Part shown: one piece after another, positions 4,833 to 5,921 of the stretch
Position numbering within the stretch: the stretch's first letter is position 1
Layout: each line of letters opens with the position of its first letter
DNA from: Anaerolineaceae bacterium
Lineage (GTDB): Bacteria > Chloroflexota > Anaerolineae > Aggregatilineales > Phototrophicaceae
Direction: 5' to 3'
DNA length: 64,000 bases
Assembly (NCBI GenBank): GCA_002699585.1
Contig: PABP01000038.1
Coordinates: forward strand, 930,001 to 994,000
Translations under genes and position numbers: made by a program
Notes under the pieces: model-generated
The model's database searches: none
Told to the model about the DNA's origin: nothing
What the model saw: only the letters and a program-made list of their open reading frames with translations

Positions 4833-4877
4833 TGCCCGTTCCTTATTTTGAATGCACTAGCACACAGAGGACGGGCA
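4833..4877 (-). promoter_or_regulatory. Candidate translational attenuator hairpin of the MFS operon
   Basis: In minus-strand RNA, UGCCCGUCC (4877 down to 4869), starting 10 nt after the leader stop codon, pairs with GGAACGGGCA (4842 down to 4833). One base is bulged. The second arm contains the GGAA core of the exporter's Shine-Dalgarno, so the closed hairpin would hide it just before the TTG start. A ribosome held on the leader peptide could change the fold. No stretch of U follows, which argues against simple transcription termination. Confidence 0.6.
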
Positions 4878-4887
4878 GCGAGGCTAT

Positions 4888-4944
4888 CTAGCGCGAACCA
4901 CCCATCAGGCGAAAGAGACACTTGTGCAGTTGTATGGCTTGCAT
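4888..4944 (-). CDS. 18-residue leader peptide upstream of MFS exporter
   Basis: A short frame encoding MQAIQLHKCLFRLMGGSR. It has the best Shine-Dalgarno in the neighbourhood: AAGGAGGT at 4951-4958, 6 nt before the ATG. Its stop codon lies 57 nt before the exporter start and 10 nt before the first arm of the SD-masking hairpin. Short basic leaders in this position are known from erm, cat and mef/msr resistance genes, where drug-stalled ribosomes expose the downstream SD. This sequence is not one of those leaders; the analogy rests on position, the strong SD and the hairpin. Confidence 0.65.
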   Translation of the reverse strand: MQAIQLHKCLFRLMGGSR

Positions 4945-5117
4945 TTTGTCACCTCCTTCGTGATAAGCGATCAATAGCGACACTATAGCGGGAATATCGC
5001 AGCCTGTCAAATATCAGAAGCCATAAAGACGGACCAGACAGGCTATTAGGAGTTCATGACAGGCACAGGCGGCTGTGCTAAACTGAATCGATTTTCCCCA
5101 TAGGAGGAGAACCGCAT

Positions 5118-5921
5118 ATGGCTGATATCCCACGCAACCCGCTTGAAAAAGAGGGCTACATCCTGGAATTTAGTGACGATTTCGACCAAGGCGTGCTCGA
5201 TACTGATAAATGGGTGCCTTACGATCTGCCTCAATGGAGTTCACGGGAGCAGGCATGGGCACGCTATACCTTCGCTGAGAGTTCCCTGGTGCTGCAAATC
5301 GAGAAAGATCAGCCAATGAGTATGCCAAATTACGATGGTGACGTTAAAACATCCTCCATCCAGACTGGCTTGTTCTCTGGCCCGGTCGGCAGCTCAATCG
5401 GACAGCATCATTTTCGTGAGGGTTTGGTCGTGCTGGAAGAACAACCGACGATCCGTACTTATACGCCACAGTACGGTTACTTCGAAGCGCGGGTGAAGAC
5501 CGACAATCGGCCTGGGAGCATGGCAGCCATATGGATGATCGGCTTTGAAGAAATACCTGAAGAATCCGGCGAGATTGCCATGTTCGAGCTATTTGCTGAC
5601 CAGATGACGGACAGGACATCAGAGGTGCGTTACGGCATCCATCCCTGGGGCGACCCGACGCTGACCGACGAATACTATCATGAGGATTTACCCATCGATG
5701 CGACGGAATATCACATTTACGCGCTGGAATGGACGCCAGATCATGTTGATTTTTATGTGGATAACATCAAGCGGCGGACGGTGTGGCAGTCGGTCGCGTA
5801 TCCGATGCAGTTCATGATGGGGATATACGAGTTACCTGGCGAGGGCGTGACGCCACAAGAGAAGCCACGCCAGTTTTTTGTCGATTATTTTAGGGGGTAC
5901 CAGCCGATAGGCGGCTATTAA
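5118..5921 (+). CDS. Glycoside hydrolase family 16-like protein, altered catalytic motif
   Basis: A 267-residue protein with a concanavalin-like beta-jellyroll typical of GH16: FSDDFDQGVLDTDKW at residues 18-32, YGYFEARVKT near 119-128, and late YALEWTPDHVDFYVD. GH16 enzymes normally carry ExDxxE or ExDxE. Here the site reads GEIAMFE (151-157): both glutamates (E152, E157) remain but the central aspartate is Ala154. No signal peptide is visible. GGAGGAG lies upstream of the ATG. It could be a weak or altered glycosidase, or a carbohydrate-binding relative. Its TAA overlaps the convergent hydrolase's stop in the shared bases TTAA. Confidence 0.8.
   Translation: MADIPRNPLEKEGYILEFSDDFDQGVLDTDKWVPYDLPQWSSREQAWARYTFAESSLVLQIEKDQPMSMPNYDGDVKTSSIQTGLFSGPVGSSIGQHHFREGLVVLEEQPTIRTYTPQYGYFEARVKTDNRPGSMAAIWMIGFEEIPEESGEIAMFELFADQMTDRTSEVRYGIHPWGDPTLTDEYYHEDLPIDATEYHIYALEWTPDHVDFYVDNIKRRTVWQSVAYPMQFMMGIYELPGEGVTPQEKPRQFFVDYFRGYQPIGGY

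Follow-up and report, generated by a model that had tools for sequence, protein, structure and literature searches.

A predicted leader-frame attenuator before a TetA(P)-like exporter operon in an Anaerolineaceae bacterium, and similar leaders among Chloroflexota

The leader locus and the operon behind it

The window analyzed here, a 64,000-nucleotide stretch of DNA from an Anaerolineaceae bacterium, carries on its minus strand an 18-codon leader frame located between a sigma-70-type promoter and two genes, which encode an MFS exporter and a GNAT acetyltransferase (Table 1). Judging from the promoter sequence, the transcript likely starts near 4975, upstream of the leader frame; this placement speaks against transcripts starting downstream of 4944, which the original prediction had regarded as evidence against an attenuator. 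The sequence UGCCCGUCC (4877-4869), 10 nt past the leader stop, is complementary to GGAACGGGCA (4842-4833), and segment B, as defined here, starts 8 nt beyond that stop. Read from the minus strand, all the coordinates originally reported for the leader frame, its near-ideal Shine-Dalgarno (SD) sequence, the hairpin that masks the exporter SD and the TTG start were confirmed. The leader SD, in the form AAGGAGGT-N3-8-ATG, occurs at 15 sites in the 6.7-Mb genome, compared with 5 sites for the reversed pattern. There is no U-run 3' of the SD hairpin, as had been noted originally, and the stretch from the leader to the exporter lacks an intrinsic terminator, which supports translational control at this locus. 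Two features were absent from the original prediction, namely, the promoter and the fold-back of the 5' UTR onto the leader. The intergenic region that contains the leader promoter is shared with a divergent gene on the plus strand (5118-5921), which encodes a GH16-family glycoside hydrolase.

Table 1. Predicted elements of the leader locus and the genes downstream, in window coordinates
Feature	Position	Strand	Remarks
Sigma-70-type promoter, TTGACA-17-TATAGT	5010-4982	minus	11/12 consensus matches; upstream of the leader
Promoter boxes	TTGACA 5010-5005; TATAGT 4987-4982	minus	17 nt spacer
Segment 1 (5' UTR/leader SD)	4972-4952	minus	Predicted to pair with the leader's second half when no ribosome is bound
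Leader SD, AAGGAGGT	4958-4951	minus	6 nt 5' of the leader ATG (4944-4942)
Leader ORF, MQAIQLHKCLFRLMGGSR	4944-4888	minus	18 codons; TAG stop ends at 4888
Segment A, GATGGGTGGT	4906-4897	minus	G-rich 3' part of the leader; +38 to +47 from the ATG; proposed anti-sequestor
Segment B, GCTGCCCGTCC	4879-4869	minus	Arm 1 of the SD hairpin; partner is A or D
Segment D, GGAACGGGCA	4842-4833	minus	Arm 2 of the SD hairpin; overlaps the exporter SD
Exporter SD, AAGGA	4844-4840	minus	9 nt 5' of the TTG start (4830)
MFS exporter	4830-3556	minus	TTG start; 424 aa; Pfam MFS_1; TetA(P)/Tet(40)-like
GNAT acetyltransferase, PF12746	3553-2747	minus	Pfam E 3.2e-25; 2 nt past the MFS stop

The profile matches identify the exporter as a clear relative of TetA(P), not TetA(P) itself. 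Its nearest NCBIfam models are NF000043 TetA(P) (E 9.4e-97, 324 bits) and Tet(40) (E 2.1e-88), and it scores well under the cut-offs for the named genes (324 vs 750 bits in the case of TetA(P), and likewise for Tet(40)). The original prediction took the erm, cat and mef leaders as the nearest models; for a TetA(P)/Tet(40)-like exporter, the tetracycline-type attenuators and the toiL leader of E. coli are closer in function. The exporter has no sequence match among solved structures; the acetyltransferase matches one solved chain, 7b3a, a putative acyltransferase. The two genes presumably form one operon, in which the acetyltransferase would be co-expressed with the exporter. Among the few relatives whose neighbors were inspected, none has a GNAT gene downstream, so the acetyltransferase appears to lie outside the conserved unit. 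The genome that contains the window encodes a second TetA(P)-like MFS protein (contig C25:133994-135124), which is 37% identical to the first and has no detectable leader, and in another genome (G062, contig C40:272145-275839), three TetA(P)-like MFS genes are arranged in tandem.

Folding of the leader RNA and a possible switch

Folding of the minus-strand RNA, a check proposed along with the original prediction, yielded the SD hairpin (4888-4828) at -20.2 kcal/mol (z -2.79), a value equaled by only 1 of 200 shuffles, and the B:D pairing within it also beats shuffles (p 0.02). The 5' helix, in which segment 1 pairs with the second half of the leader, reaches -25.8 kcal/mol (z -2.97; 1 of 200 shuffles), and the fold of the whole leader, -48.1 kcal/mol (z -2.41). 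The values for the alternative A:B helix are -17.6 kcal/mol and z -1.38 (4906-4897 with 4879-4870), and the duplex test of the leader end against the hairpin arm gave -14.9 kcal/mol (p 0.07), so that this pairing is only modestly supported by the folding models. With a ribosome modeled on the start codon, the minimum-energy fold flips to A:B, but the ensemble still favors B:D (0.81, vs 0.18 for A:B); hence, the A:B switch would need a kinetic or co-transcriptional order of events. Once freed from B, segment D retains the option of a weak pairing with the start region.

An SD-bearing short frame between a promoter and a gene, followed by a hairpin that blocks the downstream ribosome-binding site (RBS), is the anatomy of leader-ORF attenuators, and the best reading of the sequence is that the window element works like a ribosome-mediated translational attenuator. 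We consider it probable that such an attenuator, with translational output, controls the MFS-GNAT operon. In the mechanism we propose, transcription would begin around 4975, and a ribosome would load at once onto the strong leader SD. During normal translation, the ribosome would reach the leader stop and cover segment A, allowing B:D to form and hide the exporter SD (OFF). In a leader without a ribosome, B:D would form again, with segment 1 holding the second half of the frame (OFF). Were an inhibitor to arrest the ribosome on or close to the leader start, segment 1 would be covered and segment A (about +38 to +47) would remain open; being made before B, segment A would capture B and expose D, such that the MFS and GNAT genes are translated (ON). 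This scheme presupposes that the leader is translated and that the A:B switch operates at the window locus. The pump would export the inducer, a drug that targets the ribosome, and a tetracycline-like compound is the simplest guess.

The hairpin could also be controlled more simply, without any A:B pairing, in the manner of cat or toiL: a ribosome that stalls within the 3' portion of the leader, or on its stop codon, would melt or block it directly. To this arrangement we assign some, limited probability: at the window locus, B:D is strong and A:B modest, and in toiL, stalling disrupts a repressive hairpin (PMC12121999), but segment B, lying 8 nt past the stop, could be reached solely by ribosomes near the leader end. 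In addition, the A motif recurs at about +40 and matches the terminators of relatives, as described below, which argues for a second pairing partner. A rather unlikely possibility is that the locus is constitutive or coupled to stress and does not sense antibiotics, with the leader serving to load ribosomes that reinitiate at the TTG or the 5' helix stabilizing the mRNA. The very strong leader SD, the weak TTG start of the exporter and the strength of the 5' helix would agree with such a role. However, the 57 nt from the stop to the TTG, containing a -20 kcal/mol hairpin, provide a poor geometry for reinitiation, the terminators of relatives imply conditional control, and the gene family is that of a drug exporter.

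Leaders of TetA(P)-like exporters across Chloroflexota

MFS homologues were gathered at the family, order, class and phylum levels, along with contigs of named genomes, and the upstream DNA was fetched; the contigs come from Anaerolineae, Ktedonobacter, Thermomicrobiales, Herpetosiphonaceae and other groups, mostly from metagenome bins. Of the 226 distinct regions upstream of TetA(P)-like MFS genes, 51 contain a leader whose SD is 5 nt or longer; dinucleotide shuffles gave 11.6 +/- 3.3 such regions, and the opposite strand 11. A leader together with a promoter is present in 23 of the 226 (0.05 in shuffles, none on the opposite strand). In a wider scan for a promoter, an SD and a short leader, with genus g22 left out, 40 of the 195 distinct regions passed (shuffles, 0.33 +/- 0.54; opposite strand, 2) and 155 did not; the gap between the promoter and the ATG clusters near 36-45 nt. 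The strict scan overlooks some real-looking leaders (for example, those of L062, L063 and L106), so the architecture should be at least as frequent as these counts indicate. On the MFS tree, the leader labels are scattered, with 14 changes vs 15.0 when the labels are shuffled, that is, no better, in part because the leader scan gives false negatives. Among the homologues collected, no second genome has the exact compact element of the window.

The original prediction regarded orthologues that keep the MFS gene and lose the leader as evidence against it. Such orthologues exist, as none of the 31 upstream regions in genus g22 passes the scan for a promoter, an SD and a leader, and the only same-genus homologue retains the MFS gene and lacks the leader, but the outcome of this check is mixed. 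In g22 loci (e.g. L013:390-1448) and at L004:2729-3922, the leaderless MFS gene lies directly behind a gene for an APH-family phosphotransferase, which makes for another resistance-like gene pair; in the g22 examples and the same-genus homologue, the MFS gene in this position is apparently under a different promoter. The leaderless state of these relatives and the lack of conservation of the leader peptide are what one would expect if the short frame and the hairpin of the window had arisen by chance and had no function. We nevertheless consider this very improbable, in view of the 40 combinations of promoter, SD and leader at homologous positions, where 0.3 are expected, and of the z-scores of the window's own folds; for the leader architecture as such, the comparative data make a chance origin unlikely.

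The leader peptides diverge among the homologues, and none of those examined contains a close relative of the window peptide. The N-terminus is more uniform: M-[STR]-[VIAT] opens 26 of 33 leaders from several families, often encoded as ATG-TCA-GTC or ATG-ACA-ATT, and the rest of the peptide differs. A resemblance between LFRLKG in L166 and LFRLMGG in the window peptide was set aside because nothing else connects the two. At the RNA level, a G-rich motif (GGGTG, GGAGNG or GAGYGYGC), defined post hoc after inspection of the sequences, starts at +34 to +52 in 15 of 31 leaders and at no earlier position, with 0.9 occurrences in shuffles; the window leader also contains it, about +40 from the leader start. 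Given that the peptide is not conserved and the RNA motif recurs, sensing may depend on the position of the ribosome and not on peptide-specific arrest. For the same reason, the original suggestion that the inducer may be new, as the peptide is not a known one, does not follow.

The intercistronic regions vary in both length and sequence, to the extent that a single alignment or consensus fold of all leaders is unworkable, and pairing was therefore tested locus by locus against shuffles. The SD region is paired with an upstream segment at p<=0.05 in 15 of 41 leaders (Fisher p 6e-11, with the caveat that the relatives are not independent). When SD accessibility was computed in a generic way for ribosomes at various codons, the ON and OFF states of the relatives could not be told apart. 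In genus g3, an arm past the leader, CTCACTCGTG, pairs with CACGAGTGAG at the MFS start; across 9 distinct sequences, 94.4% of the cells are paired, compared with 23-58% in slid controls, a count that excludes L050, L063, L064 and L070, for which another register is needed. The original prediction proposed covariation of the stem in relatives as a check: in g3, two pairs with double changes are in its favor, but the column-shuffle control is modest (29/500 for the percentage paired and 15/500 for the covariation score) because these sequences vary little.

Of the 53 leader-bearing relatives, 18 have terminator-like hairpins (shuffles, 7.6 +/- 1.2), and the strongest U-tailed terminators, in L102, L146, L147, L151 and L160, range from -17 to -29 kcal/mol. 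Seven loci (these five, L098 and L103) have similar leaders with strong U-tailed terminators, roughly of the form GGCCRYGGGNGCGC...CCYRYGGCC-TTTTTG. In four of these, the leader end can pair with the 5' half of the terminator (L098, -29.4; L147, -27.9; L151, -29.8; and L103, -20.5 kcal/mol; p 0.002-0.02); in the other three, this pairing is not significant (L102, p 0.89; L146, p 0.42; L160, p 0.07). The terminators also raise the possibility of transcription attenuation at the window locus, through a Rho-dependent or weak terminator and with the SD hairpin being incidental, which we consider distinctly unlikely, considering that no intrinsic terminator lies between the leader and the exporter there. 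The best reading of these sequences is that the output is translational at the window locus and transcriptional in many relatives. Thus, the idea of a leader-ORF attenuator before an efflux operon gains from the local anatomy and the phylum-wide recurrence, but the translational mode of control cannot be generalized, as indicated by the U-tailed terminators of relatives.

Both the window and its terminator-bearing relatives would fit a single switch strand, A, at the leader end, which would take up B; the latter would be arm 1 of a terminator in some loci and of an SD hairpin in others. We tentatively suggest that these leaders might constitute a phylum-wide class of Chloroflexota attenuators that sense ribosomes stalled on or close to the leader start codon, whatever the peptide. 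The switch strand would be the G-rich motif, placed at a nearly fixed distance (about +40), and the output would have been swapped repeatedly between a terminator and an SD mask, with the attachment to TetA(P)-like exporters maintained.

Comparison with known leader-controlled systems

Most of what is known about leader-ORF attenuators comes from Firmicutes and Proteobacteria; the present observations point to their use for a tetracycline-type pump in an environmental phylum represented largely by uncultured genomes. No description of such leaders in Chloroflexota was found in the open literature searched, and there was no Rfam match for the window at the gathering cut-offs or for 12 loci, including that of the window, at E<=0.1. 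The comparative set splits the features that recur (the promoter-leader spacing, the position of the RNA motif and the pairing logic) from those that do not (the peptide and the output), so that peptide-independent sensing of initiation-stalled ribosomes becomes testable.

Ribosome arrest within the erm and cat leaders depends on a specific nascent peptide together with the drug. The window resembles ermC and cat-86 in having a strong leader SD, a short frame and a masked downstream SD, and the four-segment geometry of ermC (1:2 and 3:4 vs 2:3) is similar to that proposed here. The window peptide, however, appears unrelated and is not conserved among homologues, the A:B helix is modest, and comparison of the homologues examined revealed no conserved arrest peptide of the ermC/cat type.

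The toiL uORF of the topAI-yjhQP operon in E. coli shares with the window a short leader frame and a downstream RBS hidden in a hairpin (PMC12121999). Several drug classes are sensed by toiL. With tetracycline, which holds ribosomes on start codons with a 3' edge at +16 to +18, the ribosome stops on the toiL start codon (3' edge at about +18); this frees the RBS and induces topAI (PMC12121999). Stalling on a start codon thus has a precedent as a trigger, and segment A of the window (+38 to +47) falls outside this footprint. Unlike the window element, toiL controls a toxin-antitoxin system instead of an exporter, and its hairpin contains the uORF itself; an A/B/D switch with terminators in relatives is not described for it (PMC12121999). 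Control by a leader ORF is also found in the antibiotic-resistance genes vmlR and mef(E), and in vmlR the two modes of attenuation, transcriptional and translational, are reported to act together, but these genes belong to other families and to Firmicutes hosts, and their leaders are unrelated (PMC9226507, PMC4335068).

In the tet(L) and tetA(P) systems, as in the window, a tetracycline-type efflux gene follows a leader region. The tet(L) leader works through reinitiation. The attenuation of tetA(P) looks transcriptional, and the intrinsic terminator between leader and gene that characterizes mef(E)- and tetA(P)-type systems is lacking in the window and present in its relatives. On plasmid pHD0315_2-5 of Paraclostridium bifermentans (L326:380-900), we observed, ahead of tetA(P), AAAGGAG, a frame of 8 codons (MRKEVVFN) and two hairpins with U tails, an arrangement that, at the sequence level, fits attenuation as a recurrent habit of this pump family.
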